From Patiria pectinifera (Eukaryota > Echinodermata > Asteroidea > Valvatida > Asterinidae): a DNA stretch of 64,000 nucleotides. Shown piece after piece: positions 19,601 to 52,687 of this stretch. The notes beneath the pieces are model-generated. The model was given only the letters and a program-made list of their open reading frames with translations, did no database searches and was not told where the DNA came from. The stretch covers positions 7,955,501 to 8,019,500 of the forward strand of contig CM057146.1 in the NCBI GenBank assembly GCA_029964075.1, read 5' to 3'. How positions within the stretch are numbered: the stretch's first letter is position 1; every line of letters starts with the position of its first letter. The translations under genes were made by a program, and so were the position numbers.

Positions 19601-21772
19601 AAGATTTCCATATACGAAGTTCACTAATTTTCCTCTGTATTGTCTAACAAGCCCCCAGATAGCAATTTCATGTCATCAAAGTCAATTTGAGCAGTGAGAA
19701 AATACAAGCATTTTCTTAGAAAACACTTAGAATTTTTCAGTCCAATCTCATAGGGTTTGTACACAGGGTGTTGAGTGAACTTCGTATATGGAAATCTTTC
19801 CAAAATTAAATATCAGCAGATTTAATTTTGTGGAAAGAGGGCAGGGCTTTGATTTATGAGGGAAATTCAGGGGTAAAAGACGACGATGACAACCAGAAAA
19901 CAGACTCAAAAACCAAGATGGCAAACGTGAAAGCTCGATGCGATGAAAGCGCAATGCTGATTGGCTGATAAAAAATGAACATCTTATTTTTTTTTTTTAG
20001 CAGCCAATCAGCATCGGGCTTTCATTATGTAGGGCTTTCACGAGTGTGAGAACATGGAGGAATAAGGTGAGAACTACAACATGCACGTCTGACTGCGAAA
20101 AAAGGTAGGAAAGTCACATTTTCTTTGAAGTGCTATCAAAATTACAACTAACATGAGTTTATATGAAGAAAAAAAGACTGCTTTAGCCTGCAAAAGTCAC
20201 TTTGGTACTGGACAGTCATCTGCAAAAGTCAGTTTTGAACAGAACTCGTAAAAAATAGAGGTGTCCTAAAAGTAAGGATTACCGAAACTAGTATTAGTAA
20301 GAGTAGCCCGACTGCGTCTGGCCGTACAGTACTATCGCAAGCTCTGTAGTACGGCCAGACGCCCGATGCTTCCACAGAGACTGAATTTTGTTGGCCGCCG
20401 ATGTAGCGATTTCGCTACATCTTTCGATCGCGATTATCTTTTCATCCAGGACACACATTTCCAAAGTTAAGGTTCGTAGTCGTAGAGCAACTCATACCTT
20501 TTCGAAAAAACGTTCTTTTGTCTCAATATTTTCATCCATCTGGCCACAAGACGAATTTCAGTCATCAGATTCCACAAACATCGTCCCCCATGCGATTTCA
20601 AAATGGCGGCCGCGCTGTAATGTATGCAATATGCAGGCGCCCCCCGCGCAAACTCGTGAATATGCATAAACAGTCTGTGACGTATGACCGTACGGCCCCG
20701 CCACACGCACGTCCAAAAACACGAGGTCATACGTCACAGACTATTTATGCATATTCACGAGTTTACATATTGCATACATTACAGCTCGGCCGCCATTTTG
20801 AAATCGCATGGGGATCGCATGGGGGACGATATTTGTGGAATCTGATGACTGAAATTCTTGTGGCCAGATGGATGAAAATATTGAGACCAAAGAACGTTTT
20901 TCGAAGGGTATGAGTTGCTCTCGACTACGAACCTTAACTTTGGAAATGTGTGTCCTGGATGAAAAGATAATCGAAATCGCTACATCGGCGGCCAACAAAA
21001 TTCAGTCTCTGTGGAAGCATCGGGAGTCTGGCCGTACTACAGAGCTTGCGATAGTACTGTACGGCCAGACGCAGTCGGGCTATAGTAAGAGTATAAGAAA
21101 ACCATTCAATTTTCATTTACAACTACTATTGTTACGGTATTGCAAAATCACCATTGCGAATCTACATGACACTTATAGCAACCCATCCAACCAGAATGCT
21201 TCAGTAGCTCGTCGGTTACACGTTCGACTACTGTGCCAGGAAGCAGGGTTTAAATCCGCTGCTGCTTTCCATTTTTTTTGGGGGGGGGGTAAGTTTTCTT
21301 TACGTTCACGTTTTTAATCAAGTCATTCTTGCTTGTTGGACTATCTCTGTTACTAGTTACTGGCTTATATCAATTGTTAACAATTGAGGTGTCCTAAATT
21401 ACACAATTACCAAGAGTTCAAACAGTCAATAATAATCAAAAATCACCATACAGACGTAACTCATAGCATAACTGGTTAAGTACAGAACATGCAGAAGTAC
21501 ACGTCACGCGTCACACTCAGCAGCGATTTCAGCACGCCCACCCCGCATATTCATCATCAATGTCTCATGCCCCGAATAAAATAACTTGCAAAAATAGGTA
21601 CCTCAAAGTCATTGTTGGTCTTAGCAAAAAAAAAGGAAGACGACAAGTCAGCCATTTATTCTTTCAAATGTTTACTTTTCCTGCAAATATAAGCAGCAAT
21701 AATGTGAATAGGTAAAACAGAGCACTTACTGAGCAACGTTTCCAGCGTTTCATTCTCATCCGCGGACGCCAT
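1666..21772 (-). CDS. GGA: GGA-family clathrin adaptor (VHS-GAT-hinge-GAE), complete
   Basis: Monomeric Arf-dependent adaptor that sorts acidic-dileucine cargo from the trans-Golgi network to endosomes. Sixteen exons (minus, 5' to 3'): 21772-21730, 19181-19097, 17222-17156, 16454-16347, 15437-15314, 15056-14956, 14382-14164, 13332-13251, 12309-12160, 11467-11288, 9705-9545, 8789-8452, 7784-7456, 7052-6889, 5173-5063, 1755-1666. All join in frame with GT-AG sites to give 783 aa, starting MASADENETL and ending GEVDKFPV. The VHS domain is about residues 5-145 (VGKFRFLNEMIKLISPK, then YLGTKSPESVKKKV). GAT is about 165-305 (HPEDLQAANRLIKNMV). The hinge carries an LLDLSGLD clathrin-box-like motif at about 329 and long Q/P/T-rich exons 12-13. 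The gamma-ear domain (GAE) is about 645-783 (MRVKLQPPSATDLPAFNP). From memory, vertebrate GGA1 is about 640 aa, so the extra length is hinge. The exon 5 donor (gtcagc) is weak. Confidence 0.95.
1842..2361. repeat. MITE-like element with inverted ends (family B)
   Basis: The left end AAGCTATAGTCCATCATTTG is matched by its reverse complement at about 2337-2359, and TTAA lies at both outer ends. The interior is repeated, inverted, at 56250-56840, and one end recurs at 15943-16205. The right half contains the AT-rich and CG-rich blocks common to all copies (for example ACGAATTATAGCAA or its complement). It lies in the last intron of the GGA gene. No coding capacity was seen. Confidence 0.75.
2573..3585. 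repeat. Foldback element, about 1 kb
   Basis: The two ends are long, imperfect inverted copies: 2573-2800 against 3420-3585 reversed. Each begins with a TA-rich tip (ATCTATATATATAAGAG). Both then share TACTCGGCC, AAAGGATCCGAGAC, the CACGTCCGTGGAAAAATGTG block and GCCGGGTCGGAC. The GC-rich middle has no recognisable gene, and the open frames on both strands are by-products of the repeat. It sits in the last GGA intron. This is a non-autonomous DNA element; its superfamily is uncertain. Confidence 0.75.
3947..4030. repeat. C-run/CA microsatellite pair
   Basis: Two runs of 11-15 C followed by short CA arrays are separated by about 40 bases. Similar G/C homopolymer blocks recur at 12080, 22284, 23375, 25137, 41095 and 63020. 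They are length-unstable low-complexity DNA. Confidence 0.8.
4290..4640 (-). mobile_element. tRNA-derived SINE (minus strand)
   Basis: On the minus strand a tRNA-like head carries a box A (TGGCCTCGTGGT) near 4630 and a box B (GGGTTCGAGTCC) near 4568. The body reads through TACCCTTGGGCAAGGCA and TAAATGGGTACC, then a GCGCCTTGGGC segment near the tail at about 4330. The same style of body occurs in the plus-strand SINE at 5935. It is inside the last GGA intron. Confidence 0.75.
5935..6205 (+). mobile_element. tRNA-derived SINE with CTTTA-type tail
   Basis: The box B-like GGGTTCAACTCC lies at about 5992, after a degenerate box A. The body then has TGTCCTTGGGCAAGCCACTT and TATAAATGGGTACCGG. The 3' tail is ACTTTACTTTA just before 6205. 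It shares the 'CCTTGGGCAAG...AATGGGTACC' core with the SINE at 4290-4640 but is a different subfamily. It lies in a GGA intron. Confidence 0.75.
6350..6765. repeat. TTAACCCTAAC-ended element with 'CAGGATTGAGG' repeats
   Basis: It starts TTAACCCTAACCGCCCT and ends AGGGAGTTAGGGTTAA, so short inverted ends carry TTAA. The interior has repeated 'GGAGGAATTTGCAGGATTGAGG' type phrases separated by unrelated spacers. The same family, inverted, is at 18000-18425. TTAA flanks recall piggyBac-type target sites, but no transposase is present, so this is only a suggestion. Confidence 0.65.
8841..9075 (+). mobile_element. tRNA-derived SINE (family with CACTCGGGAGG body)
   Basis: The tRNA-like head has a box A (TGGTTGAGTGG, about 8935) and a box B (AGTTCGAGTCC, about 8980). 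The body has CACTCGGGAGGTAACACACT and GTGAAGGGCAAAA. A second copy at 63606-63825 matches along the whole length, including the 5' extension with CCCGCTGCTA and CAGATTCGAACCAGCCAA. The head could pass for a tRNA gene in an automated search, but the shared flanks show it is a SINE. Confidence 0.85.
9325..9465. repeat. Second, partial copy of the 9867-10090 element
   Basis: Shares ATCGCTGACGTGATGTT, TTATCCCGAA, GTGACCCATAT, TTGTGC and CATGCGCAGTT with the neighbouring element and ends at a diverged form of the same tip (ACAGGCTTA). It has only one unit of the motif that is expanded in the other copy. Confidence 0.65.
9867..10090. repeat. Inverted-end MITE holding a 10-bp tandem array
   Basis: The ends are inverted copies: TAAGCCAGTTCGGTATTTCA at 9867 and its near complement ending CTGGCTTA at 10089. 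Inside, 9911-9960 holds five direct copies of the 10-mer GCGATGTTAC with few changes. The part from ATCGCTGACGTGATGTT to ATGCGCAGTT is also present at 9325-9465 without the tandem expansion. It is in the GGA intron between exons 10 and 11. Confidence 0.75.
11689..12095. repeat. Intronic repeat with AACCCTAA tip and G/C-run end
   Basis: It starts CCTTAACCCTAAAAGGG and ends at a GGGGGGCCGAATCCCCC block, with AT-rich sequence between. The block lies in the GGA intron between exons 9 and 10, its right end about 65 bases from the exon 9 donor (exon ends 12160). No second copy in the window was established, so the boundaries are approximate. Confidence 0.35.
12700..12925 (-). mobile_element. SINE fragment (minus strand)
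   Basis: On the minus strand a box B-like GTTCGAGCCCGCCGGCGG lies at about 12905. It is followed by AAGCAAGGTACTTAACCATTA and a body with GGGACGTTAAGCCGTAGGTC. This layout, a tRNA-like promoter then a 'GCAAGGYACTTAAC' segment, is typical of animal SINEs of the same broad group as those at 4290 and 5935. The head is truncated. Confidence 0.6.
13001..13220. repeat. Dispersed repeat, inverted partner of 1-205
   Basis: It begins TTTAACCCTTACAGAACTCA and ends GGGAGTTAGGGTTTAAG. The interior matches the left window edge in reverse: AACTCAACCCATCAAA, GTACAGTACCCCTAA and GGATGGGTATGGTTC are visible landmarks. It abuts GGA exon 8 (13332-13251) on its downstream side. Confidence 0.65.
13463..14111. 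repeat. Inverted-end element rich in CCGACCCGACCC
   Basis: The ends AATGATGTGC (13464) and GCACATCATT (14100) are inverted. Just inside both, GGGTCGGGT pentamer-like arrays occur in opposite orientation. The middle has no recognisable gene. It lies in the GGA intron between exons 7 and 8. It looks like a non-autonomous DNA transposon; the superfamily was not determined. Confidence 0.7.
15943..16205. repeat. Partial copy of MITE family B
   Basis: The tip CTTTAAAGGAAGAGTACATC, the GAAGCAACAAAAGTGCTCA block, AACCTGATGAA, GCTGTATATTCCGAG and GACGAATTATAGCAA match the copies at 1842-2361 and 56250-56840. It sits in the GGA intron between exons 4 and 5. Confidence 0.65.
18000..18425. repeat. TTAACCCTAAC-ended element with about 42-bp tandem units
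   Basis: It starts TTTAACCCTAACCCCCTAG and ends GGAGGGTTAGGATTAAG. From about 18217 to 18385 there are four tandem units of about 41-43 bases, each with CCATTCAGCCTCAATCCTCC and a short A-rich linker. It is the inverse-oriented relative of 6350-6765. An open frame runs through the repeats only because the unit is close to a multiple of three. Confidence 0.75.
19447..20291. mobile_element. Foldback DNA element with 8-bp target duplication
   Basis: The element body is 19455-20283 (829 bp). Its ends are GGTAATCCTTACTTTTAGGA and the exact reverse complement. It is flanked on both sides by the 8-mer GAAACTAG (19447-19454 and 20284-20291). A second inverted pair lies inside (AAGATTTCCATATACGAAGT near 19601 and its complement near 19778). 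No transposase is encoded. Eight-base duplications are typical of hAT-type insertions, so it may be a non-autonomous hAT relative. Confidence 0.88.
20295..21091. mobile_element. Foldback element with 9-bp target duplication (Mutator-like)
   Basis: The body is 20304-21082 (779 bp), two arms of about 340 bases in inverted orientation around a spacer of about 100 bases. Tips are TAGCCCGACTGCGTCTGGCC and its complement. The 9-mer TAGTAAGAG flanks it exactly (20295-20303 and 21083-21091). Long inverted arms with a 9-base duplication are the usual picture of Mutator-like non-autonomous elements. Long open frames on both strands here are palindrome artefacts. It begins 3 bases after the previous element's target duplication. 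Confidence 0.88.
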
Positions 21773-27446: not shown

Positions 27447-28148
27447 ATGGATTTCATGCAGAACTCAGTACTGTCTCTTTTCTGCGCCGTTGAGCATTCA
27501 TCACCAGCCTTATTGCAGCCGGTCAGCCGCAAAGCTAGAGCAAGGCAACCAGCCTCAGCAGCTGCCCCAGCCCGTAAAAGAGCAAGAGGAGATGCGCCAT
27601 TTCGATCCCCAGCCGCTTTTTCATCGGTCCTTGAGGAAATTACTGCACCCTTGGTCGGGTACGCCTTCGTCCCTTCCAGTTTCAAGACAGCCGTCCCAGA
27701 AGTTGACATCTTCCCGAGCGGCATCGGTGTCCTAGCCAAGGGTCACCAATTCTCCATCTTTAAGAAATCGCACGCGGATGAGGCAGCCACGGTGGTCAAC
27801 TACCTGGTCTCCTGCAACTGCTTCAAGAAATTCCAGGAGGATGCCGCTCGTCTCCGAGAAATTCTGAACGAGGGCATCTACCTGTACGCCATCTCCACGG
27901 CCGTGCTGCACCGTAAGGACACCGGCGGTGCCCTGTTGCCTCCGCTATGGCAGGTCAACCCTCGAAATTATTTTCCGGGGCCGATCATCAAGCGTGCTTT
28001 CGATCAGGCTCGCCTCGGTAAAAGTGACGCCTCTGACGGCTCGATTCCTCCCGCCTTTACCACAGGTTCCAACCGGGACCCGGAGTTCAAGCTTGCCTGG
28101 TGGAGGGAAGATTGTGGCTTCAATTCTCACCACTATCACTGGCACCAG
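27447..28148 (+). CDS. Lone first exon of a hemocyanin/prophenoloxidase-like gene (copy 1)
   Basis: The frame encodes 234 aa, the N-terminal domain plus the start of the copper-A site, ending at HHYHWHQ with a consensus-like donor (CACCAG then gtatga, phase 0). From [10 protein letters not shown] onward it is almost identical to exon 1 of copy 2. Before that it has about 40 extra residues, Arg/Ala-rich (RKARARQPASAAAPARKRAR). The ATG at 27447 aligns with the copy 2 start; an in-frame ATG at 27432 is also possible. Exons 2-8 are not found before copy 2. The downstream DNA at about 29580-29712 resembles copy 2 intron 1 at about 32737-32870, so exon 1 plus part of intron 1 was duplicated. It is either a truncated relic or an alternative first exon for copy 2, because the phase fits exon 2 at 34438. 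No TATA box was seen. Confidence 0.8.
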
Positions 28149-31185: not shown

Positions 31186-34100
31186 ATGGATTCCAAGCAG
31201 AACTCGGTACTGTCTCTTTTCAGCGCTGTTGATCATTCACCAGCCCACTTTTCCCCTGCTCCTGATTCTGTTGCGTCCTTGGTCGGGTACGCCTTCGTCC
31301 CTTCCAGTTTCAATACAGCCGTCCCAGAAGTTGACATCTTCCCGAGCGGCATCGGTGTCCTAGCCAAGGGTCACCAATTCTCCATCTTCAAGAAATCGCA
31401 CGCTGATGAGGCAGCCACTGTGGTCAACTACCTGGTCTCCTGCAACAGCTTCAAGAAATTCCAGGAGGATGCCACTCGTCTCCGAGAAATTCTGAACGAG
31501 GGCATCTACCTGTACGCCATCTCCACGGCCGTGCTGCACCGTAAGGACACCGGCGGTGCCCTGTTGCCTCCGCTATGGCAGGTCAACCCTCGAAATTATT
31601 TTCCTGGGCCGATCATCAAGCGTGCTTTCGATCAGGCTCGCCTCGGTAACGCCTCTGACGGCTCGACTCCTCCCGCCTTTACCACAGGTTCCAACCGGGA
31701 CCCGGAGTTCAAGCTTGCCTGGTGGAGAGAAGATTGTGGTTTCAACTCTCACCACTATCACTGGCATCAGGTACAAATCGTACTTTTTTAAAGTTTAATT
31801 TAGTAGATCCTTATATTTGCGTGGCAGCATGGTGTTCGTTTGTTCCACGGGATCGAACGGATGCCTATCAGTAAATAGTTTGTGATTTTCGGTATAGGAC
31901 ATTTAAAACAAAGGCACCCCTTCCCCTAAAAAGAAAACAATAAAAAAAAACTACAAAAATAACCACCCCATGCTATCTGATTTGTTATTATCTAAAACCC
32001 ATTGGAAAGGGCTTTATCACACCACCCGGCTGAAAGACGTTCAACCAATAATACTTCCGCGACCATGGGGCAACACTTATCGCTGTAAGAGCTGATAATA
32101 ACACAAGCAGTCATATAAAGTAATGAATCCAGATGATATTCACAATTATGAGACAGGTATAGGCCTAGTTGTGTCATGTTATGAGCAGAAAAAGAATACC
32201 GTATACTTGGGGCATGCTGGTGTTTTACGGTACAGGTTTGTCTGAATCTCGATAAAATAGGAGCTACTGCCGTAGCATCACTAAATGAGATTCATTCCAA
32301 TGCCTCCTCGCCACTTGCCTTCTGAAATAGAGACCAGAAAATGACCTTCGAGTTTCAACTCGACAAACCATACCTTCCGTCCAAAACACGGGGATAGATA
32401 TTTGACTCTTCGCTAAACTTTGCCCGATCCTGACCTTTTGTCATATAATTACGTGGTAACTGCATGGAGGCTTGTTTAGGCCTACTCTATGTTTGTACAT
32501 GTCTAGTGTGTATGTCATAGGTATTGTGACAGTTTTCGAATGATAGCTGCATTGCTGACATTATTCCTGTCTACTCTGTAAGCCGTTTAGCCAGTTAAAC
32601 TGAGAGATGATCGCATGTTTTGCTGAAAATAATCTTAAGGAAAAAGAATGACGCCCATCCAAGCAAAAACTGTAATCATGTAGATTTCCTCAACATATGG
32701 TTTTCCCGTTAAAAGGTTTAGGGATGCATGCATTTTTCTGAGGAGCACATTTTGTTCAATTTTCTACACCACTTAAATGTATGAAAACTGTTTGACATCC
32801 TTTTTGGTCCATTTTATTTAAAGACTGCACTTGTTTACACTTTCAAATTGTCCATACTTTTCCGGACAAGAGTATGTTAATAGCCGTCCTCGTAGATCAG
32901 GGTATTATGAGACACTACTGATATGGAATTTCACAGACGAAGCTTACCTAATACCTGGGGACTTGTTTATTATTATAAGGGGTTTTTTTTTGGGGGGGGA
33001 GGGGTGGTGGTTGTGCTGAACAATCGTTTTGTACATTGAACGTGCTAGATCCGGGTTATTCAATACAATGGCGTTTACTTCTGGGAAGAAACCCTGGATC
33101 GTTCTATATCTAATCGGTTTCCTCGAGCATTCACCTGGGTTTTTCCCGGGGTATTTTACAGTATAAGTCCCTATAAAGTGAAAGCTGGCTGTTTCCTCGC
33201 GAGGATTTCCTGGTTCCGTGGTTGTTTTACTGGTGGAAAGACCACCTAAATCAAACTCACATGCATTCAATCAGTCTATACAGTACATTAAACTGTGTAT
33301 CAGAATTATTCGAAAACGCACAGTTCAAGTTCAATGAACCTCACATTATAGCGGTGAATAACTCGATCAATTTTCCACCTGGTTTTCATTCACCAAGTTC
33401 CTCCTCACTTTTCGTTTTCCATTTTTTTCTGAACCATACAGGGCTTCACCTTTAGATAATGATTTCCACAACAATCAAAGATTACCGAACCGTGCTAAAA
33501 CAGTGTGATCTGAGTAGACAGTTCTGCGGTATCCTGATCTGTGCTATAAATACAATAAATCCGAAGTATAAGGTCAATCTTTTTTCATGTATAGCCTATT
33601 GTGATCAAGCGCTGTCTGCTGCGCACGCGCAGACATAGGCAGTGTGGGCTGAGCTCCATCTATAATATAAGCTGCCCCTGTGTTCAACTAAGCCGTAGGT
33701 ATAATTCCAATAAAACTCAGCTACCAGCTCAGCTGACTGACAGCAAGTCACAGCTGAGCTCAGCTCAGCTAAATTTCAGGTCAAGTCGATCAGCTCAGGT
33801 CACCCCGGGTCTGCTTAGATATAAGCCCATCCCGTGTATAGCTCAGCCCACTTGCCTCACCTGATCTGCAGCTTACTTCAGCTCGTCTTCCATCCCAGCT
33901 AACAGCTCATCTGGGCTTGGCGCAGATTAGCTGATATCAAGTCAGTTTAGTTCTCACATCAGTACGGATCAGCTCACGTTAGCTCAGACCAGCTCATCAG
34001 TTAATGTGTCGATATGTCAGCTAAATGCAGCTATATAGCTGCAGATCCCCCCCCCCCCCCATGCACAACTCAGCGTGTCTGCAGCTGAGCTGAGCACACG

Positions 34101-37100
34101 ACGCGTCGCGACGGCTCAGATCAGAGGAGATAAGAGCACATCAAGTAAGCTCGGCTTCGCTCAGTAGCAGCTCACCTGCATTTAAGCACATCTCAGATAA
34201 GATCAAACGAGATCAGATCGGATTATAACAGTTCAGCTTGGCGCTGCATTCCACCTGCAGTTCAGCTAGGGTCAACCGATCCGACGTCAGCTCAGTTTAA
34301 GATAAGATCAGATCAACTCAGCTCAGCTTGACTCAGCTCACCTCAGGTTAGACCATATCGGCTTAAATTAGCTCAGCTCATTACTGCTCATCAATGCTGC
34401 CACTCAACGCTTGTTTTACCCTTTTTGTGTTGTCCAGTCCTATCCATGGCGTGGTGTCAACGGAGTAACCAAGGACCGTCAGGGGGAGCTGTTCTACTAC
34501 ATGCATCAGCAGATGTTGGCCCGTTACGATGCTGAGAGGCTGGCCGTAGGCCTTATGAGGGTGGATCCCTACTCCAACTGGCACCTTCCCATCCCGGTAA
34601 ATTAAAAGTTTAAAAATCCATTGGCATGAATCGCGTATATTAATTGTTTTTCACTACTGGTATATATGCCAATTCAATTTTTTTTCTTCTCTTTTCTACT
34701 TTCGTAATCGGTGCGTTGAACCTGGAATTGTGGTATTGACCCTATTGTGAAAGAGCCAGAAGATTTTGTTGGCTGAAGTATGACTGAAATTTGGTAAAGG
34801 GTTTGCGGTAACATCGTGTATTCAGGTATCTTTTATGAGTTTGTTTGGTTCTGAAAAGAATCGTTTGACATTTTGTTCTGCAGGAAGGGTATAACCCACA
34901 GCTGACGGACTACTACGGGGCCTACCAGTTCGCTGCGCGGCCCGCAGGGATGATCCTAGCCGACAATTGGCGCGATCCCTCGGATCCTACGCTGATCATC
35001 CAGCAGGAGTACCATCGCAACCGACTTCTGGATGCCATCAACACTGGCAAGTTTGAAAAGGTGAGAAAAAAACTATCAAAGGAGGAGTATTGTCCCTGGT
35101 GTCAAAATCTGAGTTATTAAACAGAAACCTCTTCGGCAGAGTTCAGGTTTTCTTGATTTTTTTTTTGGTATAGATACACGAGAAGTGAATTACGACTTTA
35201 GGTATAAATGCAATCTCTAGCGTGAGATCGAGTTCATGAGTTTTGCAATTACATTTTCAAAACATGTTTCAGTAGACCTACTAAAATTCGGCTCCCTCAA
35301 AAGCACTGTTTATTGTGGGTTTTGTGGCATTATTATTGTGCACAGACCGATGGCAACAAAGTGGACGTCGACATCGTTGGTCTGGGCGCGGCCATAGAGG
35401 CTAATGCCAGCACACCCAACCCAGACCTGTACGGTTCTGTGGGGATCCACAACCGCGGTCACGACATCCTGGCCGGAATCACGGACCCAGACTACCGCTA
35501 CAATCAGGTGCGTCAGAATTCACCTTGGAGTATGTTTTGGCCTAAATGCACTTTAGGGGAAGAGAAAGGCTTGTAATAGCTTGTGCTTAGCATATCTTGC
35601 AGCGTCAGTGTGTTCCACTCCTCAATTGTGTATACGAACAATGTTTTCGTTGAGCCCATCGCAAGTCACCAGGAGTCGTCATACGTCCATGCACAAGTCC
35701 ATCACAAGTCATGTCCCCCAGTCTCAAGTCCCACACATTTACTGTTACAAAAGAAGTCTTCGTATAATGTTCATCCACCGGTGCTTGCAATAGGACTTTT
35801 GAAATCACTTGTGCTTTACGTGTGACAGACCTGTGATAGACTTGTGATTGACTCATCTACAATACTGAGAGGTAGGAGATTGAAAGAGATTGAAGGAGGA
35901 CACTCCGTAGGCTACAATCCTAAAATGTTATCTAAGATGATGGTGTGGTGTTTTAATAATTAGTGGCCTTGAACTTTCACCCACGGTGTGTCGAAAACAC
36001 CAAAAGCTCTTAACTTTCCAAGCGCCTGCTCTAGGCTAGTGGGAAACAAACCCTCACCATCCTGATTTCTGATATTAACTGTTTCTGACTGCATGTTGTG
36101 TTTTCCACAAGGCCGGGGGAGTTATGGGCGACACCTCCGCTGCCATCCGGGACCCGATCTTCTTCCGCTGGCACAAATTCATCGATGATCTGTTCTTCCT
36201 GCATAAGATCAAGTTGACGCCATACAACCAGACTGATTTGGAATTCCAGAATGTTCAAGTGGACTCTGTGCAGGTGCAGGTAGGTCAAACTTTAAGCCTT
36301 ATTTTATTTGGGTAATCTGTGGCCGTGCTGTAGTCCAGTCTACCAGAAGTACATCACAAGCCCTGTCACAGGTCCTGTCATGGATCTGGTCAAAGTAACG
36401 GGGGATGAACAACAATAAAATAAATCATTTGTCTGTAAATTTGATTAGCATATGGCTGGACATAGGACAGGAGGACTTGTAATGATGCTCTTGTTAGGAA
36501 TTGTGATACACTAATAGTCTATAACATCTATTGTCAGCTCGGTCTACAAGGTGGTCCCAAAAAAACCCTTCAAACTTCCACTACTTTGAGACTTAAACCA
36601 CCTGTACCGATTGATGGAGAATCTTTTTAGAAGAATTATGATACCAAAATATCCCGATTCGGTACTGCACCAGTAGATTTTGCTGCAGAGCCTATTTTGT
36701 GAATGATACGTCTTTCATGCGGGTATTATTAGATAACAATGTCCCTCTATCAATTACAATGTAAGTCAAATTCCCGGGAGCGGTTTAGTAATTCATCAGG
36801 ACAAAAATGACCCCACCTTGCTTCACAAAATAGGCTCCAGAACAAAAAGTACTGGACCGAATCGGGCGATCTTGGTTTCATTTTTCTTCTAAAAAGATTC
36901 TCCATGGATTGGTACATGTGGTTTGAGTCTCAGGTTCCGTTTTTGTGGACTACCCTGTACATCCTACCACTCGCTCAATTGGTTTTCTGAATCTGTTTTT
37001 CATTAATGCTCAACTGACAGGTGAACGATCCAGCTCGGCCTGCCAACACTCTGATCACTCGCATGGAGGACGTTGTGGTGGACATCGCCAATGACATGTT

Positions 37101-38742
37101 CCTGAACCCAAATGACAAGCCTAATACTGAAGTCAACGTAAGTGTTACTGCTCATTTAAGTACAGTAGGCCTACACAGGCAACCACCGAGGCTCTTTTTT
37201 ATTTTTAAGTCCCCGAAGTCCAAAAGAAGGGATGCAGATATTGCATTAATATAACTAGTCACACAAAATTAGGGATGTATTGGGCGACGTTTTTGCGAGC
37301 TGCATTCGTCTACCCGTCTTTGCATAAAAAGTAGACGCATGCAGTTCGGAAAAAATAGTATTGAAATGTTTTTCTTTTTCTAACTCGTGGCTCCGGAGGA
37401 TTTTTTAAAAGGTAATCAAGTTCCTTTTGCGAAGGCATTCCTGCCAGATATGGATGTATATTCCAGAAACGCTGTTATCCATACTAACGGCACGACCCAG
37501 AGTTTGGCTGAAATCTGTCCCAATGGCAAACACCCCTATAATCCACTTCAAACGGAGGTGATGTACAAAACAAAATGTACATGTTTCTGTAAATTAGTAT
37601 TAAAACAGTTTGCACAAACATGCTATGCTAAAGATCAACTTGGTTTACATACGAATTTGAATCTCACATTCATCGTTCCAATTTAACATAGAGGACTGAA
37701 ATCTTAGGCCCATCCTATTATCCGTGATATATTTTGTGAAGGATAATGACAAAGGCGTGAATAAGTGTCAAAGGGCTTCTGTTAATGTCAAAGCCGCATA
37801 TTCTTGTTCAACAGGTAACCGTGAAACAGGTGAACCACGGTGAATTTAATTACAAACTGGGGGTTACCAGCAACAGCGGGACACCATTGAAGGCAGCCAT
37901 CCGCATCTTCATTGCGCCCTCTCTCGACGAGCATGGGACCCAATATCAGTTGGACTCCCAGCGCCGCCTTTTTATCGAGATGGACAAGTTTGTGACAACT
38001 CGTGAGTAAAATCGTTCATCTCGACGTTTTCAGATTGCAAATGAAGTTTCAAAACAATCATGACAACTCCCAAAGGCACTGAAAGGAGTGTCGGTCAGCA
38101 AAACCTTATGTCACACTTACCAATGTCCACAATCAGCTTGCGGGTCGTTGATCTATGATGAAACATCCAAAACAAATCTGACATGCAGGGGCTGGAGTTT
38201 TAATTGGTCTCTCACATCTGATCGGCGAGGTATTAGGCACTAAATACGATCCTCTGTTCTCGTTCAACTAATAGAATAGTTACCAATGTCAGCTTCCTTT
38301 ATTCACAGTGGAAACTGGTAACAATGCCATCACTCGCAGCTCAACCCGCTCCTCCGTCATCAAGCCACGAGAGCTGACCATTGCAGAGCTGAGGAAGAGA
38401 GGCACCGCAGCGAAGGGAGCAGACGACGGCTCCACATGCCGAGCAGACCGCTACTGCGAGTGCGGCTGGCCCGAGCACATGCTGGTACCCAGAGGCACAG
38501 CGGCAGGCATGCCCTTTGACCTCTTCGTCATGGTTACCAACTGGGCCAAGGACAGCAGCACGGATGACCTGGATCGGGGTACCAGTTACTGCGGCGTGAA
38601 GGACAAGACCTACCCGGACAAGCGCCCCATGGGATTCCCCTTCGACCGCAAGATAGACAGCGCCCTCTACAAGAATGTGGCCGACTTCGCCAAGGGCTTC
38701 TCTAACATGAAGACGCTCCCGATTAAAATCACATGCGTGTGA
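31186..38742 (+). CDS. Arthropod-type hemocyanin/prophenoloxidase-like protein, complete (copy 2)
   Basis: Type-3 copper protein that binds O2 or oxidises phenols. Exons: 31186-31770, 34438-34596, 34884-35060, 35346-35507, 36112-36279, 37021-37137, 37815-38001, 38309-38742. All junctions are GT-AG and in frame, giving 662 aa. Copper A: HHYHWH with H190 and H194 spaced HxxxH, then H218 in [10 protein letters not shown]. Copper B: H342 and H346 in [12 protein letters not shown]382 in [14 protein letters not shown]. The N-terminal FSIF (65-68) aligns from memory with the placeholder Phe region of Limulus hemocyanin. The C-terminal domain has [22 protein letters not shown] and [13 protein letters not shown]. 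No signal peptide is visible, as in arthropod prophenoloxidases and unlike most secreted hemocyanins. The canonical Arg-Phe activation site is absent (SSFNT instead). Oxygen transport and phenoloxidase activity cannot be told apart from sequence alone. Confidence 0.94.
33690..34380. repeat. AGCTC-rich degenerate repeat in intron 1 of copy 2
   Basis: Short irregular units of AGCTC, CAGCT, AGCTCAG and GATCAGAT run for about 700 bases up to the exon 2 acceptor region. A matching GAGCT-rich tract, inverted, lies in copy 3 intron 1 (48840-49290 and 49955-50165). No transposon ends were identified around it. Confidence 0.8.
36538..36962. repeat. Foldback MITE in intron 5 of copy 2
   Basis: The ends TACAAGGTGGTCC and GGACTACCCTGTAC are inverted. 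Nested inverted pairs follow: GATGGAGAATCTTTTTAGAAG against its complement and GAGCCTATTTTGTGAA against TTCACAAAATAGGCTC. Copy 3 intron 5 is about half as long (362 against 741 bases) and lacks it, so this insertion followed the duplication or was lost from copy 3. Confidence 0.8.
37399..37557 (+). other. Candidate cassette exon in intron 6 of copy 2
   Basis: Fifty-three codons (starting [10 protein letters not shown], ending YNPLQTE) are open. They follow a pyrimidine tract (TGTTTTTCTTTTTC, 37367-37380) and CCGGAG, and are followed by GAG then gtgatg. Both edges are phase 0, matching exons 6 and 7, so inclusion would keep the frame. The peptide matches no family I recognise. Known hemocyanins run straight from exon 6 to exon 7 without such an insert, and copy 3 lacks it. 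It may be an alternative exon, an exon of a nested gene, or a fragment of a mobile element. Confidence 0.3.
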
Positions 38743-38843: not shown

Positions 38844-38849
38844 AATAAA
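38844..38849 (+). terminator. Poly(A) signal AATAAA of copy 2
   Basis: AATAAA lies about 100 bases after the stop codon. The aligned place in copy 3 (complement of 43974-43979) reads AATACA, a weaker variant. Confidence 0.6.
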
Positions 38850-44107: not shown

Positions 44108-47100
44108 TCATGTTAGAGAAGCCCTTGGCTTGTAGAGGGCGCTGTCTATCTTGCGGTCGAAGGGGAATCCCATGGGGCGCTTGTCCGGGTAGGTCTTGTC
44201 CTTTACGCCGCAGTAACTGGTACCCCGATCCAGGTCATCCGTGCTGCTGTCCTTGGCCCAGTTGGTAACCATGACGAAGAGGTCAAAGGGCATGCCTGCC
44301 GCTGTGCCCCTGGGTACCAGCATGTGCTCGGGCCAGCCGCACTCGCAGTAGCGGTCTGCTCGGCATGCGCAGCCATCGTCTGCTCCCTTCGCTGGGGTGC
44401 CTCTCTTCCTCAGCTCTGCAATGGTCAGCTCTCGTGGTTTGATGACGGAGGAGCGGGTTGAGCTGCGTGTGATGGCACTACTACCAGTTGTCACTGTGAA
44501 TAAAGGAAGCTGACATTGGTAATTACACTGCTTGTTGCTCGAGACCATCAGAGGATCGTATATAGTGACCTACGAACTCCCTGATCAGATGCGAGAGACC
44601 AATTAAAACTCCAGCCCCTGTTGCTTTGGATGTTGTCGCCAAGTTACATCATGGTCAACGATCCCCTATAGCTGGAAAAGGCCTCGCGGACATTGATAAG
44701 TGTGACATAACTAAAATTTTTGTCCCTGACCGACATTGTGCATTTTAGGAGTTGTCATTATTGTTTTGATATTTGACTTCAAGATGCTTCGCCTTTACTC
44801 TTCTCATTTCATTAGCAATCTGCAAAACGTCCAGACAAACCATTTTACTCACGTGTTGTCACAAACTTGTCCATCTCGATAAAAAGGCGGCGCTGAGAGT
44901 CCAACTGATATTGGGTCCCATACTCGTCGAGAGAGGGCGCAATGAAGATGCGGAAGGCTGCCGTCAATGGTGCCCCGCTGCTGTTGGTAACTCCCAGTTC
45001 GTAACTAAATTTATCGTGGTTCACCTGTTTCACGGTTACCTGTTGAACAAGAATATTTGGCTTTGACAATAACAGAAGCTCTTTGGCACTTATTCGCGTC
45101 ATTTGTCATTATCCTTCGCATCACGGATAATACTAGGATGGGCCTAAGATTTCAGTCATCTATAGGTAAGTTGGAACGATGAATGTGGGATTCAAATTTG
45201 TATTCTAACCAAATTGATCTTTTGCATGCAATGTTTATGAAAACTGTGTTAATACTACGTTATATAAGCGTGTATGTATTCCAAGCACTCATCTTTCCTA
45301 TCGCGACATACGCTGCAGAAACATGGACCCTCAAAGCAGAAGACCATCGTAAACTAGAGTCCTTCGAAATGCGCGCTGTCTTAGAACCATCCTCGGAGTG
45401 ACTCTCCGAGACCGACTCACCAACATCACAGTGCGGGAACAGCTGAAAGTGCAACTCACAATCACAGAAGTCATCAGGCGATTGGCCATGTAGCAAGAAG
45501 GCCACCGGACAGCTATGTCGCTAGAGCATACCGGCAGGATTTCACGAACCCAAGACCTCGTGGCAGACCTCCAAAAACCGGCCGACCAATAGCAACAGCC
45601 GAACGACGAGCATCAGACCGCGAGGGCATTCGAGGTTGTCTACGCCAGGGGAGCGCAAGGGTTCCAATGGGACTGAGCATTTAAGTCAAGTAAGTCAAGT
45701 ATTTCTAGTGGATTCTAAGGGTGTTGACCTTTGGTCGCATGATATATTATGTCCTAAAAGGATAGCGATTGTTTTTCTTTTGTTTTGTTTTGTTTGAAAG
45801 AGCGTCGGGTGGTTGCCTGTGCACTGTACTTACAATGAGCATTAACACTCACTTTGACTTCAGTATTAGGCTTGTCATTTGAGTCCAGGAACATGTCATT
45901 GGCGATGTCCACCACAACGTCCTCCATGCGAGTGATCAGAGTGTTGGCAGGCCGAGCTGGATTGATCACCTGTCAGTTCAACAATAACGCCAATTAAGCA
46001 AACAAATTGAGTGATGGTGGGATATATTTATACACTGAACACGGATCGCCCATTAATTGAAGTAGGGACAGAGCTAACGCTGTATTGGACTATTAGAGTC
46101 CACCACAATTCAAAACAAGAACATCATCACAAGTCCGCCTGTCCTTTAGTCCAGCTGCATGCTAAGCAAATGTACAAACAAAATAAGATCTCTTTTATTT
46201 TTGTTCACTTTGTTATTTTGACCAGACCCATGATAGGACTTGTGACAGGGCTTGTGATGTACTTCTGGTAGCCTTGACTGCAACACTGACACAGATTACC
46301 CAAATAATATCAGTCTTAAAGTTTGACCTACCTGCACCTGCACAGAGTCCACTTGAACATTCTGGAATTCCAAATCAGTCTGGGTGTATGGCGCCAACTT
46401 GATCTTATGCAGGAAGAACAGATCATCGACGAATTTGTGCCAGCGAAAGAAGATCGGGTCCCGGATGGCAGCTGAGATGTCGCCCATGACTCCCCCGGCC
46501 TTGTGGAAAACACAACATGCCGTCAGAAACGGTTTAAATTATAAAACAGGAAGTCGTGAGGTTGTTTCCCGCTTGCCTATGGCTCATGGAAAGTTAAGAG
46601 CTTTTGGTACTTTGTGACACACGTGGGTGAAAGTTCTAGGCCACAACCAAATTATCAAAACACCACACCATCATCTTAGATGACATGTTAGGATTGCGGC
46701 CTACGGAGTGTCCTCCTTTCAATCTCCCACCACTCAGTGATGAGTCCATCACAAGTCTATCACAAGTCTGGTCACACGTAAAGCACAAGTAATTTCAAAA
46801 GTGCTACATGTATTGCGAACACCAGTCGGGGAGTCTGGTTGGCGTAGCGGTTCTTTCAACCCTCGCCTTCCACTGCTGTGACCCGGGTTCGAATCCCGCC
46901 CTGGGCCAATACGTGGAATGGATATTCAGTCCCTACCTGATTCCGTGGGTTTTCCTCAGAATATTCCTCTGGGCTTTTCCTCCCACCCGTCTAAAACTGT
47001 AATTTCTTCTCATTCCGTACAGCTTTCTTCAGGCTTTCGAGCTACAGTGCCTTGGGCACTTTTGATGAATCCTTGGTTTCATTACCAGAAAGAAATAAAA

Positions 47101-50100
47101 AATTTAAAAAATGGATGAACAATACAAAGACTCCTTTTGTAACAGTTAGTGTGTGTGACTTGAGACTGGAGGACAAGTGATGGATTTGTGCATGGAGGAC
47201 TTCTGATGACTTGCGATGGGCTCAACTATTTCGTACACACAATCATCGGGGAGCTGGAGTGAGGCACACTGAGGTTGCAGGCAAGATGCAAAGCTCAAGC
47301 TATCGTATGCCTTTCTCTTTCCCTAAAGTGCATTTGGGCCAAGACATACGCCAAGGTGTTCCTTCTGACGCACCTGATTGTAGCGGTAGTCTGGATCCGT
47401 GATGCCAGCCAGGATATCGTGACCGCGGTTGTGGATCCCCACAGAACCGTACAGGTCTTTATTGGGTGTGCTGGCATTAGCCTCTATGGCCGCGCCCAGA
47501 CCATTGATGTCGACGTCCACTTTGGTGCCATCGTTCTGTTCACAGCATCCAAAAAAACAAAACGGGTTTTAGTAGGTATAGTGAAACTTTATGTATAAAC
47601 TGTTATTGCATAGCTTATCAACATTTACTTCTCGTGTTTACCGCATTATCTTAGCGCCTGCTTACTGAGTTTGAAAATCACTTGTTTTTTAAAGGGGGCA
47701 TGGGTTCGATTTTAACAGTTGTATTATTCCCAAAAGCCACACGTTAAAAAAAAACACAATTATGAGAATAAAATGATTTCCCCAAACAAATCCGAAAACA
47801 GTTTCTGTATTCTGTTTAATATTAATATAACTCAGATTTTTTTCTACAAAATTTCGATATTCTTTTGCGAACGAAATTTAAAGGAGTATAATGTCATGTA
47901 ACAATAAATGGGCTTCGATATTTTTGCAGGCCTGTATACAGTTTTAAAAAAGTCGTTTTGAAGGCGCGCTCCAGTTCAGAAATAGCGCACACTATTCTAA
48001 ACGAATTAGAAGCGTCCCGCTCAAGAGTTGAAATTAATAAATTGATTACTTAATATTGTCGTGGGCCACTTTTTCCGCGCGATGTCTCATTGGAAAGCTC
48101 ATAACTAATGTAATGCATAAAATTATCAATTCAATTTTAAAATCTTTTTTTTCAAGGTGCAACACCGAAACAAAATCACGTATACACCAACTGTACTAGG
48201 TCTCTGTATTTCTCACCAACCTTTTCAAACTTGCCAGTGTTGATGGCGTCCAGAAGTCGGTTGCGATGGTACTCCTGTTGGATGATCAGCGTAGGATCCG
48301 AGGGATCGCGCCAATTGTCGGCTAGGATCATCCCTGCGGGCCGCGCAGCGAACTGGTAGGCCCCATAGTAGTCCGTCAGCTGTGGGTTATACCCTTCCTA
48401 CAGAACAAAATGTCAAACGATTCTTTTCAGAACCAAAAAAACTCATAACAGATACCTGAATACACGATGTTACCGCAAACCCAAATTTCAGTCATACTTC
48501 AGCCAACCAGATCTTCAGGCTCCTAACCACAATGTCAGGTTCAAAGCACCAGTTGCGAAAGTAGGGGAGAAGACACATTTGATTTATGCATGAATATACG
48601 CGATCGATACCAATGTCCTTTTAAAACTTTTAATTTACCGGGATGGGAAGGTGCCAGTTGGAGTAGGGATCCACCCTCATAAGGCCTACGGCCAGCCTCT
48701 CAGCATCGTAACGGGCCAACATCTGCTGATGCATGTAGTAGAACAGCTCCCCCTGACGGTCCTTGGTTACTCCGTTGACACCGCGCCATGGATAGGACTG
48801 GACAAGGCAAAAAGGGTAAAACAAGCGTTGAGAGGCAGCATTGGTGAACTGTATGAGCTGAGCTAATTTAAGCTGAGCTGTATAGCTGAGCTTGGCTGCA
48901 AGCCTGGGCCGATATGGTCTAACCTGAGGTGAGCTGAGGCAAGCTGAACTGAGTTGATTTAATCTTTAATACATATGAGCTGACGTCGGATCGGTTGAGC
49001 CGAGCTAAACTGCTGGTGGACTGCAGCGCCAAAGCTGAGCTGTTATAATCCGATCTGATTTCATTTGATCTGATGTGATATGAGCTGTCTGCAGGTTAGC
49101 TGCTGCTGATCGAAGCTGAGCTGATCTGATCGAGCCGTCGTGTGCTCAGCTCAGCTGCAGACACGCTGAGATAAGCCCGGGGATCTGCAGTTATGTAGCT
49201 GTATAGCTGACCTATAGACAAAATGAGCTGGTGCGGTGGTATGAGCTATCGATCCGACGAGCTGAAGCGGGCTGAGGTGAACGACCCTGATAAGGCAAAA
49301 GAGAAGTGGTGCGGTGACGCGACTTTTTTCGGCTTATTTATTTATCAAATGTCGGCTGATGTTGTAGATGACGCTTCGATCCCCTTAAAACTCTCAAAAT
49401 ACCATTAGCGTGAAGCTGAGCCTTGATAATTTGATAACTTGATAATTCTGCACCCACTTACGATCTCGACCGACGTGAACATTCTTCGGGAAATTTGGAT
49501 AGTCAAGACAAAAGTCAGAGAAAACGGTATTAAAACGGTATTTAAAGTCAGACCATAACGACATCGACATCGTGCATGTGCTGCCAGGTTGGTCATTAGT
49601 CTGCTCCCTTACATATTGCGCTAATTAAAGCGAGTTTATGGGTTCCGGATCCCTCAGTCTGGCTTCCAGACGCACAATTACAAAATTACAACACCATCTA
49701 CAAATGGTGGCCGACTTAATCTAGTGCAAAATATATGGGAGCCCAGAGAGGCCAAATAAAGCTTACACTCGATCGTAACCCCATCTAAAACACGTTGTGC
49801 AACAGCAGGATTCCAGTCAAACCAAAGAGTTTTGCGGATTTGAGACATCATCTTACATTGGAAAAAAAGTTTTAAATTTTGCCGACGCGCAAGGCTACCG
49901 GGCAATGTGCGAGCAGACCAGAGACAGGAGACATGTTTTTTTGGCCTAAGCTACGCAAGCCGAGATGCCGAGCTGCAGTGAGCTACAGCTGAGGTGAGCC
50001 AAGTTGGGTTGAGGTATGGGCCTACATGAGGGGTGCTAAGCTGAGCGGACCCGAGGTGACCTGTGAGCTGACCTGACCTCAGCTAAGCTAAGCTGAGCTG

Positions 50101-52687
50101 ATAGCTGAGCTTTATGTAGATATACCTACAGCTTAGCTGAGCTCGGCGGCGGCTTATAGAGAGAGCTCAGCCCACACTCCCTAGTATCTCTGCTTTACAC
50201 ATTCATATTGACCTTACTTCGGATTTATTGTATTAATAACGCAGAAGGATACCGCAGAACTGTCTACTCTGGCAAGGGTCGGTTATCTTTGATACTTGTG
50301 AAGGAACCCTGCATACTCAGGGTGATACAAAAGCTGTTTATTCTAAGAGAAGGGAGAGGTAACCCAGACAGCGGTAAACAGGCTTCGCGGGGCAGTGCTC
50401 CGGAACTAGTGTCAAACGAGAAGGGATAGAAATCTGTGTCAGTCATGAGAAGGAGATGAGAGGAATGGCCTCCGAGTTGGGGAAAAGACAGATATAATTC
50501 CCCTGAATACCGCTGGAAATCATGATGAAGGCTACTGTTTGCCGTGATTAGCCTGGTGCAGCGACTGGCTACCTCCTTCCCTTCGACTCTGAGCAACCAA
50601 TGAAGACGAATGAACATTAATGAATGAATAAATAATCAGTGATTCTCCCGTGAAACTTAATCTCCACTGTGTGTACGTGTGTGTATGTCAACTCGCCCCC
50701 AACGAGACTCTGAAGCCCCACGGCGCTACTCCGCGCTCTCTACATTAACATGCCCTGTTCACTTGCAGTACAGTATATACACGCTGCATTCAAATCTTTG
50801 GCTGTTAAAACTGAATTTCGGGGAAGATCGACAATCGCACTTTAATTAACAGTGCTAACTACCAGATAAAAAAAGAGTCCCATGGCACGACCGCAATGCG
50901 CAAAGCTGCTTATTTCAACCCGAGCAAAACTACGCTAATGTGTATGATTATAGAGTCCTAAGTCAAGTTACTTTTTTAAGTTATAAATGCAGTTTCCAGT
51001 GTGACAGAATTCTCAGAACGGTGTCCGATGCTTTGCGAAGACTCTGTCGTCTTTGAGAAAATGTAAATTCACATCAAATGATCACAATGTACGTCTTAGT
51101 TGATAAAAGTTGAAGCTCTGGTCTCTATTTCGGAAGGAAAGTGGCCAGGATCCTCGAGGCACTGGTATTTGGGGTTACATTTGGTATAAAACGAATCTCA
51201 TATTTAGTGATGCTACGGCAGTAGCTTCTATTTCCTCGAGATTCCGGCAAAACGTGCACCACAAAACCGTGACCAACATGACTTAAGTACGGTATTATGT
51301 TTCTGCTCATGTCAAGAAACATTTATCCAGTTTTTGATTGTTTTTTGAATTTGCGGCTTTGGAGGATTTTTTTTTTATTAAAGGATTGAAAGTCTGAATT
51401 TCATTGGGGTTATTTTTTTTGTATATATATATCAATCATTTTTTTCTATCATGTTTTTAGGTAAGTAAAGTGAAGTCCAAAACCTCATAAGCGTACATAG
51501 GCCTACACCCCATCAGTTATGTCGTTTTGGGGACAAATCACGGGCGGGCCCAGTGACAGGCTGGTGGACAGCCTTAATTAACATAACAATGATGCCATCA
51601 CAATAGCGGATTTCAATGAGTTGAGACCAGGGTTCTCCAGACTGAGTCTCAGAGAACATCACAGAGTCAAAATAAACCGCCTCACAAAGGAGGCACTGAG
51701 TGCCCCGGCCCCCAAGCGCAGAGTAATGGAACAAGGACGCCGGGCCAAATCTATGTGAACCAATGAGCTACCGAAGCGTTCTGGTTGGATGGGTAGATAT
51801 AGATTCCCAATGGTGATTTTGCAATCTGTTTAATAACTTGAAAATCGCGTTACGGCCGCCGTAATGATAGCCACTTCCTGTAAGAACAAATCAGCAAGCA
51901 CTTACATGGGATGGTTATTTATGTAGTTTTATGTGATTGTTTTCTTTGGGGGAAAGGGGAAACTTGTGTTAAATTAGTGTCGTGAACCGAATGGATTATT
52001 TACGGATACACATCTTTTCGATCCCGTTGAACAAACGAACACCATATGCAAAAAAAAAAAAAAAAATATGAAAAATACGATTTGTACCTGATGCCAGTGA
52101 TAGTGGTGAGCGTTGAAGCCACAATCTTCTCTCCACCAGGCAAGCTTGAACTCCGGGTCCCGGTTGGAACCGGTAGTAAAGGCGGGAGGAGTCGAGCCGT
52201 CAGAAGCGTCACTTTTACCGCGGCGTACCTGGTCGAAAGCACGCTTGATGACCGGCCCAGGAAAATAACTCCGAGGGTTGACCTGCCATAGCGGAGGCAA
52301 CAGGGCACCGCCGGTGTCATTACGGTGCAGTATGGCCGTGGATATGGCGTACAGATAGATTCCCTCGTTCAGAATTTCCCGGAGACGAGCGGCATCCTCC
52401 TGGAAGTTCTCGAAGCTGTTGCAGGAGACCAGGTAGTTAACCACCTTGGCTGCCTCATCGGCGTGCGATTTCTTGAAGATGGAGAATTGGTGACCCTTGG
52501 CTAAGACACCGATGCCGCTCGGGAAGATGTCATTGTCAACTTCTGGGACAGCTTTCGTGAATCTGCAACTAGGGACGAGGGCGTTCCCCACCAAAGACGC
52601 AACATAATCGAGAGCCGGGCAATAGTGGGCCAGTGAATGCTCAACAGCGATGAAAAGAGATAGTACCGAATTCTGCTTGGAATCCAT
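44108..52687 (-). CDS. Hemocyanin/prophenoloxidase-like protein, copy 3, altered C-terminus
   Basis: Type-3 copper protein paired tail to tail with copy 2. Exons (minus): 52687-52088, 48797-48639, 48397-48221, 47535-47374, 46499-46332, 45969-45853, 45039-44853, 44493-44108; all junctions keep frame, 651 aa. All six copper ligands are present ([31 protein letters not shown]), as are FSIF and ECGWPEHM. Residues 1-55 differ from copy 2 and include CRF at 41-43, where arthropod proenzymes have an Arg-Phe cleavage site. A 16-base deletion after DSALYK shifts the frame, so the last 22 residues of copy 2 are replaced by PRASLT. No TATA box was seen, and the poly(A) signal is AATACA. It could be functional with a trimmed tail or at an early stage of decay. 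Confidence 0.9.
45273..45690 (+). mobile_element. 3' fragment of a LINE reverse transcriptase
   Basis: Translation gives [18 protein letters not shown] and LESFEMR. In the next frame it gives [14 protein letters not shown] and TVREQLKV, and further on words such as PRPRGRPPK. This is the familiar C-terminal end of non-LTR (RTE/CR1-like) polymerases. It has at least two frame changes and an in-frame stop, so it is dead. The tail AAGTCAAGTAAGTCAAGT looks like a short 3' repeat. It lies in intron 6 of copy 3, opposite to the gene, and is absent from copy 2. Confidence 0.85.
46826..47112 (+). mobile_element. tRNA-derived SINE in intron 4 of copy 3
   Basis: Box A TGGCGTAGCGGT (about 46839) and box B GGGTTCGAATCCC (about 46886) form a tRNA-like head. 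The body has GTGGGTTTTCCTC and GTGCCTTGGGCAC and ends in an A-rich tail (AAAGAAATAAAAAATTT). It is not present in intron 4 of copy 2, so it inserted after the duplication or was lost from copy 2. Confidence 0.8.
48840..50165. repeat. GAGCT-rich repeat in intron 1 of copy 3, split by a MITE
   Basis: Irregular GAGCTGAGCTG units occupy about 48840-49290 and 49955-50165. They are the inverted equivalent of 33690-34380 and share non-repeat anchors (for example GTCGGATCGGTTGA and TGCAGCGCCAA with their complements). A separate element interrupts the tract at 49294-49947. Confidence 0.8.
49294..49947. repeat. MITE (family E) inside the GAGCT tract
   Basis: Shares GTGGTGCGG, AAATGTCGGCTGATG, ATATGGGAG and CAGAGAGGCC, ACCCCATCTAAAA and TTTTGCCGACGCGCA with the element at 60535-60914 and ends in TTTTTTTGGCC. 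It carries about 300 extra bases in the middle (about 49365-49675), perhaps another insertion. Confidence 0.7.

Follow-up and report, generated by a model that had tools for sequence, protein, structure and literature searches.

Hemocyanins and prophenoloxidases (PPOs), copper proteins that transport oxygen and darken wounds, are textbook arthropod proteins, and the question raised by the 64,000-nucleotide stretch analysed here (contig CM057146.1, positions 7,955,501 to 8,019,500; the window) is whether it carries an intact member of their family and, if so, what that gene would do and from which lineage it would come. A first-pass annotation had placed such a gene, called copy 2 below, at 31186-38742 in a genome that it took for deuterostome. 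Both ends agree with our gene model: copy 2 consists of eight exons on the plus strand, from the ATG at 31186 to a stop codon ending at 38742, which join to a single reading frame of 1,989 bases, encoding 662 amino acids plus the stop. All seven introns are GT-AG; introns 1-6 lie in phase 0 and intron 7 in phase 1. The ATG at 31186 (MDSK) is the earliest in-frame ATG of an open reading frame (ORF) that is open from 31042. Copy 2 is intact and without lesion. Beyond that annotation, the window contains an inverted paralogue (copy 3) and an extra first exon (copy 1), so that the locus is more structured than had been described. The exons and flanking signals of copy 2 are as follows.

31186..31770, plus strand: exon 1, all-alpha N-terminal domain, F68, H190/H194 (CuA); ORF, GT donor, Pfam PF03722/PF00372
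34438..34596, plus strand: exon 2, third CuA histidine H218; GT-AG, frame, tblastn
34884..35060, plus strand: exon 3; GT-AG, frame, tblastn
35346..35507, plus strand: exon 4, waterkeeper Glu E325, CuB histidines H342/H346; GT-AG, frame, alignment
36112..36279, plus strand: exon 5, sixth copper histidine H382; GT-AG, frame, alignment
37021..37137, plus strand: exon 6; GT-AG, frame, tblastn
37815..38001, plus strand: exon 7, holding IEMDKF; GT-AG, phase-1 end
38309..38742, plus strand: exon 8, terminal Ig-like domain and stop codon; AG acceptor, TGA stop, Pfam PF03723
31126..31133, plus strand: TATAAAAG, candidate TATA box, 52 bases short of the ATG
38844..38849, plus strand: AATAAA, candidate polyadenylation signal, starting 102 nucleotides past the stop

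Four occurrences of the octamer TATAAAAG were counted in the window, where 3.25 are expected, and it is by its position only that it weakly suggests a TATA box. Membership of the hemocyanin/prophenoloxidase family, as annotated, is far beyond chance: all three Pfam domains of copy 2 exceed their gathering scores (Hemocyanin_C 4.7e-67, Hemocyanin_M 3.3e-53, Hemocyanin_N 3.4e-14), and the best chain in the Protein Data Bank (PDB), hemocyanin 3ixv, was matched at 1.8e-137. We take 3ixv to be from a scorpion, 1hc1 from a spiny lobster, 6l8s to be of shrimp type and AsqI to be fungal. Limulus hemocyanin 1oxy and Manduca phenoloxidase 3hhs_B, named by their labels in PMC3658974, were matched at 1.6e-123 and 1.2e-118, and AsqI (5yy2), a distant homologue covering residues 121-633 of copy 2 at 2.1e-20, was the lowest of the 25 matched sequences. 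The entry 8jib, filed as 'TK receptor', was treated as an insect-type PPO because of its 60% identity to Manduca PPO1, and 4yzw (AGAP004976) was treated as Anopheles PPO8 (AgPPO8) because the residues named in PMC4700666 fall on it. Copy 2 was 42% identical to 3ixv and 40% identical to Limulus 1oxy, both of them chelicerate hemocyanins, and reached 36-38% with four PPOs and 34-35% with two crustacean hemocyanins; the scorpion and Limulus hemocyanins shared 61% with each other.

The dicopper site is complete. Copy 2 retains all six copper histidines (H190, H194, H218, H342, H346 and H382), and its placeholder Phe is F68, the second F in FSIF; these histidines and F68 line up with their equivalents in 8/8 of the solved arthropod sequences used. 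The words EMDKF and CGWPEHM, which the annotation had listed together with the histidines and FSIF, are likewise present in the translation. Residue roles were taken from passages of PMC4700666 and PMC8049008 and transferred through the alignment with the eight solved arthropod sequences; the AgPPO8 numbering was anchored on F99, and the residues given in PMC4700666 are found at all 12 positions compared, F99 among them. The catalytic Glu (AgPPO8 E364; E325 in copy 2) is retained in both copies 2 and 3, as are the equivalents of AgPPO8 N380, F248 and F415. At the MsPPO2 E395 position, copy 2 has Thr, as in two chelicerate hemocyanins, and copy 3 has Ile. The only Lys or Arg residues ahead of F68 in copy 2 are K4 and K61, and the Arg-Phe activation cleavage site in the pro-region, a criterion for an insect PPO, is absent, indicating that insect-style cleavage activation of copy 2 is impossible. 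Residues 1-40 showed no strongly hydrophobic start core (top 11-residue Kyte-Doolittle mean 1.77, at residues 28-38). Hydropathy and the ORF start make it likely that, as annotated, there is no signal peptide.

The reading that we favour, and consider rather probable, is that copy 2 encodes a cytosolic, lysis-released phenoloxidase-like protein, a member of an already known family. Family membership, the probably missing signal peptide and the complete site with its catalytic Glu together point to a latent phenoloxidase released by lysis, and we infer the phenoloxidase function of copy 2 from its sequence. Blood or coelomic cells would produce the protein in their cytosol, where, by analogy with its homologues, the domain-I Phe would cover the active site and keep the protein latent. 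Cell rupture would release it, and it would then act as a phenoloxidase, turning phenols to quinones and melanin; its activation would come from a conformational change and not from insect-style cleavage. The authors of the AgPPO8 study doubt that this Phe has to move (PMC4700666).

Such a protein has precedents. In a 2013 survey, the type-3 copper proteins were divided into alpha, beta and gamma, the beta-subclass taking in the hemocyanins and tyrosinases (PPOs) of arthropods; its members are described as cytosolic, without signal peptide and marked by a Phe placeholder (PMC3658974). Beta members are listed there for hemichordates, urochordates, sponges, fungi and amoebozoans (PMC3658974), the survey detected no type-3 copper gene in the draft genome of the sea urchin, and for cephalochordates its table has gamma only (PMC3658974). 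Ascidian phenoloxidase is described in a tunicate review as highly similar to arthropod hemocyanins, with activation by serine proteases supported (PMC5465252). The intact family member reported by the first-pass annotation is supported. The bearing on the age of the family that the annotation had seen was overstated, since beta members outside arthropods had already been published in 2013 (PMC3658974).

Copy 3 lies tail-to-tail with copy 2 on the minus strand, from 52687 to 44108, and its eight exons encode a protein 91% identical to that of copy 2. All seven introns are GT-AG and the six copper histidines are retained. Its exons are:

52088..52687, minus strand: exon 1; tblastn, splice site, Pfam
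48639..48797, minus strand: exon 2
48221..48397, minus strand: exon 3, with 4 extra donor bases compared with copy 2, GT donor still there
47374..47535, minus strand: exon 4
46332..46499, minus strand: exon 5
45853..45969, minus strand: exon 6
44853..45039, minus strand: exon 7
44108..44493, minus strand: exon 8 up to the first stop

Exon 8 of copy 3 has a 16-bp deletion relative to copy 2, and the resulting frameshift turns the final 22 residues into 6, giving a protein of 651 amino acids. Alignable blocks of the two copies, which take in exons as well as stretches of intron, are 81-86% identical, except for an intron block at 66%; such intron divergence speaks against an assembly echo. Across 646 codons, the frame-shifted tail included, synonymous divergence (dS) was 0.124 and nonsynonymous divergence (dN) 0.049, a ratio of 0.39. 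The exons differ among themselves: exon 1 had a dS of 0.20 and a ratio of 0.31, and exons 2 and 3 showed no amino-acid change in 112 codons. We read the near-identity of exon 2, set against the exon 1 dS, as patchy gene conversion between copies 2 and 3. In exon 2 (34438-34596 and 48639-48797) one silent base differs, and the first 15 nucleotides of the following intron are identical.

The lineage of the gene was approached with an unrooted tree of copies 2 and 3 and 8 of the 25 distinct solved matches (569 columns, LG+F+G4, maximum likelihood (ML)), which apart from the copies held arthropods only. Near-duplicates, hexamerins, the crustacean PPO 3wky and AsqI were left out, and the tree contained no crustacean PPO, myriapod, onychophoran or priapulid; its rows were the aligned parts only, both crustacean rows being without the C-terminal end. 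The two copies shared a stem of their own, of 0.99 substitutions per site, which joined between the group of chelicerate plus crustacean hemocyanins and a strong PPO group (99.9/100). Attaching the copies beside the whole insect clade gives the same unrooted tree as the ML one. Other placements were compared by the approximately unbiased (AU) test on the 569 columns and on four column sets (full, gap-free, domain II and domain III); the constrained trees of the first test fixed an insect sub-topology lying 6.5 log units below ML, whereas the four-set test left the insects free. Copies sister to the scorpion were rejected (AU 1.5e-6; all four column sets, 4.4e-5 to 0.011), and so were copies with Anopheles (AU 0.0022; all four column sets, 0.0003 to 0.026). 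A position sister to both chelicerates was rejected less strongly (AU 0.022 in the 569-column test) and in two of the four column sets (0.049 and 0.047), the single domains giving 0.29 and 0.13. The rejected chelicerate and insect placements make contamination from the sampled lineages unlikely, and an origin of the gene in them appears unlikely too. As far as these alignments go, the arthropod-only tree speaks against a sampled chelicerate or insect origin and does not bear on a deuterostome one. In viral and genome contig collections, 6 and 13 stretches respectively matched a peptide pattern, and tblastn confirmed none of them as a relative.

Several results weigh against the favoured reading of copy 2. 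The basic partner of the catalytic Glu (AgPPO8 R244), which is Arg in 4/4 PPOs and Lys in 4/4 hemocyanins, is Gln in both copies (Q210 in copy 2). One of the four conserved domain-III disulfide Cys residues is gone, the AgPPO8 C636 position being Leu beside a gap; C568, C570 and C613 are kept in copy 2, so that one conserved pair (C570/C613) is possible and the two conserved domain-III disulfides that serve as a criterion for an insect PPO are not both there. With the Gln partner and the missing Cys, the activity may differ from that of an insect PPO. Moreover, the identity of copy 2 to the chelicerate hemocyanins exceeds that to each of the four PPOs, which leaves room for an oxygen-carrier or dual role; the branch parting the hemocyanin from the PPO side is weak (Shimodaira-Hasegawa-like approximate likelihood ratio test (SH-aLRT) 18.5, ultrafast bootstrap (UFBoot) 52); a position sister to crustacean hemocyanin survives (AU 0.23), with none of the four column sets rejecting it (0.43 to 0.51); and constraint between copies 2 and 3 is uneven, exon 6 having five amino-acid-changing and no silent differences and exon 7 a ratio of 0.97. 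Oxygen binding is the main functional rival, the gene pair then encoding an oxygen-storing or oxygen-carrying hemocyanin instead of a phenoloxidase. The 42% and 40% identity to chelicerate hemocyanins, the highest observed, fits this, as do the Thr at the MsPPO2 E395 position (in copy 2 only, Ile standing in copy 3) and the fact that copy 2 has no Arg-Phe site for zymogen cleavage. A signal peptide, which a carrier secreted into the plasma would require, is probably absent here, but to our knowledge chelicerate hemocyanins have none either, and the argument is thus a weak one. The non-arthropod relatives are regarded in a 2018 paper as probable phenoloxidases, with functional analyses missing (PMC6034248). 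On balance we consider an oxygen carrier unlikely.

It is also rather improbable that the contig came from an unsampled lineage on the arthropod side (a myriapod, pycnogonid, onychophoran, priapulid or divergent crustacean) and that the gene is its ordinary PPO or hemocyanin. The surviving sister relation to crustacean hemocyanin, the chelicerate hemocyanins at the top of the matches and a tree holding only 8 arthropod sequences out of the 25 distinct solved matches would agree with such an origin. Against it stand the 34-42% identity to each of the eight, compared with 61% between scorpion and Limulus, the rejection of the tested inside-clade placements and the absence of one conserved arthropod disulfide Cys. 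The annotation had named arthropod DNA or contamination as what would overturn it; this objection has been weakened by the rejected chelicerate and insect placements but not removed, given the crustacean-hemocyanin sister at AU 0.23. That the whole locus is decaying, each copy being a pseudogene or an assembly duplicate, is hardly credible. A 16-bp deletion does shift the frame of copy 3 close to its end, copy 1 is a single exon, and exons 6 and 7 are little constrained between copies 2 and 3; yet copy 2 is free of lesions, copy 3 keeps 7/7 GT-AG introns and six histidines, the overall dN/dS is 0.39, and the intron divergence speaks against an assembly echo.

The cytosolic phenoloxidase-like reading of copy 2 leaves copy 1 to be explained, of which the window holds one feature:

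27447..28148, plus strand: copy 1, open first exon alone, 234 codons from 27447; ORF, phase-0 donor

An additional in-frame ATG lies upstream at 27432, and tblastn at E 10 found no further exons between copy 1 and copy 2. The GT donor of copy 1, in phase 0, reads in frame into exon 2 of copy 2 (34438), which would give a form of 701 amino acids. The last 165 codons differ little from those of copy 2 (dS 0.072, dN 0.016), while the first 300 nucleotides past the donor agree at 60.0%, against 60.6% for shuffled sequence; between copies 2 and 3, 78% of the corresponding 300 nucleotides are shared. An exon so alike beside an intron so diverged suggests exon-limited gene conversion or that constraint has retained the exon. 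In copy 1 an Arg-rich insert of 36 residues follows residue 18, with 9 Arg/Lys within residues 28-53. In AgPPO8 the pro-region spans residues 17-81 and is cleaved after R51 (PMC4700666), and the insert of copy 1 sits where this pro-region is. Copy 1 has its placeholder at residue 105, compared with F99 for AgPPO8 and F68 for copy 2. AlphaFold models of the three first exons (copies 1-3) were uninformative (mean pLDDT 31). This extra first exon, with an Arg-rich insert at the position of the activation segment of insect zymogens, may be the most interesting feature of the locus. Should a form containing copy 1 exist, its Arg-rich segment could be cleaved by a trypsin-like protease. One may then ask whether the copy 2 gene uses copy 1 as an alternative first exon, a single locus yielding a protease-sensitive form (701 amino acids, with the Arg-rich activation segment) and a protease-insensitive one. 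The 234 open codons with their phase-0 GT donor, the low divergence of the last 165 codons despite an intron at the shuffled level, and the 9 Arg/Lys lying within the AgPPO8 pro-region stretch, with the placeholder at 105 (F99 in AgPPO8, 68 in copy 2), speak for it. Copy 1 may instead have arisen by partial tandem duplication and owe its similarity to gene conversion, and the stretch matching the TATA motif of copy 2 reads TATGAGG; the alternative first exon is a possibility that we hold only tentatively.

The neighbouring genes found in the window are the following.

14152-14412, minus strand: GAT piece of a GGA-type adaptor (GGA1 3.9e-23)
15300-15518, minus strand: weak VHS piece of a GGA-type adaptor (6.9e-05, below the Pfam cut-off)
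57524-58399, minus strand: CYP3-like P450 exons (Pfam 1.4e-23 and 1.4e-16; joined pieces CYP3A5 8.3e-30)

GGA adaptors and CYP3-like P450s are widespread in animals, and these neighbours are not phylum-diagnostic, so that the deuterostome label goes back to an impression of the first-pass annotation. Coding-looking stretches at 7400-8789, without Pfam hit, may be hinge exons of the GGA gene, the coding-likeness score having been trained on copy 2 itself, and 62681-62863, likewise without Pfam hit, is a possible additional P450 exon. A P450 exon is adjoined by a minisatellite at 57135-57497, made of about 33 copies of the 11-bp unit GACTTGTGATT, whose octamers are more frequent than any others in the window. 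At 20304-21082 lies a self-complementary element of about 780 bp, 82.9% identical to its own reverse complement and resembling a large foldback element. A direct repeat (60301-60534 and 60911-61146; 236 aligned bases, 98.7% identity) is probably a recent mobile-element copy, and a 25-mer from it had no match in the viral and genome contig collections. The octamer TAGGCCTA occurred at 7 sites in the window against 0.53 expected, and none of 100 shuffles reached 7; its enrichment is possibly a lineage signature. TAGGCCTA is known from ambulacrarian and fish genomes, but the papers containing this string were, among the matches listed, unrelated, and the octamer is therefore not counted here as evidence. 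A tRNA scan and Rfam at gathering scores found nothing in the window.

What the locus adds hinges on the species and on the role of copy 1. Intact members outside arthropods show that the oxygen carriers of arthropods arose by recruitment from an enzyme family of greater age, a framework that has already been published, and such genes are candidates behind the phenoloxidase activity reported in non-arthropods. Were the DNA from a hemichordate, the gene would confirm what is known and add to it a duplicated arrangement and an additional first exon. In a cephalochordate, Pang et al. are said to have reported a prophenoloxidase in 2004. If this DNA came from a cephalochordate, the locus would be a candidate gene for that prophenoloxidase. 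The table of the 2013 survey shows no beta member there (PMC3658974). A lineage for which that survey gave no beta member (cephalochordates with gamma only, or the sea urchin with none) might even carry a duplicated locus whose alternative Arg-rich first exon yields protease-activated and unactivatable forms from one gene, but this combination we consider very unlikely.

Compared with known systems, copy 2 agrees with the beta-subclass members of hemichordates and urochordates in having a Phe placeholder and, as it appears, no signal peptide, the comparison being with their published description only (PMC3658974). Unlike these members, for which the 2013 table gives no disulfide bridge (PMC3658974), it has a possible C570/C613 pair. 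The chelicerate hemocyanins (3ixv and Limulus 1oxy) are its best matches, at 42% and 40%, and have the same copper site; copy 2 differs from them in that Gln stands where they have the Lys that partners the catalytic Glu, one disulfide Cys is gone and the tested placement inside their clade was rejected. With the insect PPOs (Manduca 3hhs and Anopheles PPO8) it shares the copper site, the placeholder Phe and the catalytic Glu, whereas it has no Arg-Phe site, a shorter stretch up to the placeholder (68 versus 99) and Gln in place of the Arg partner. AsqI (5yy2) is a more remote relative, homologous over residues 121-633 of copy 2.

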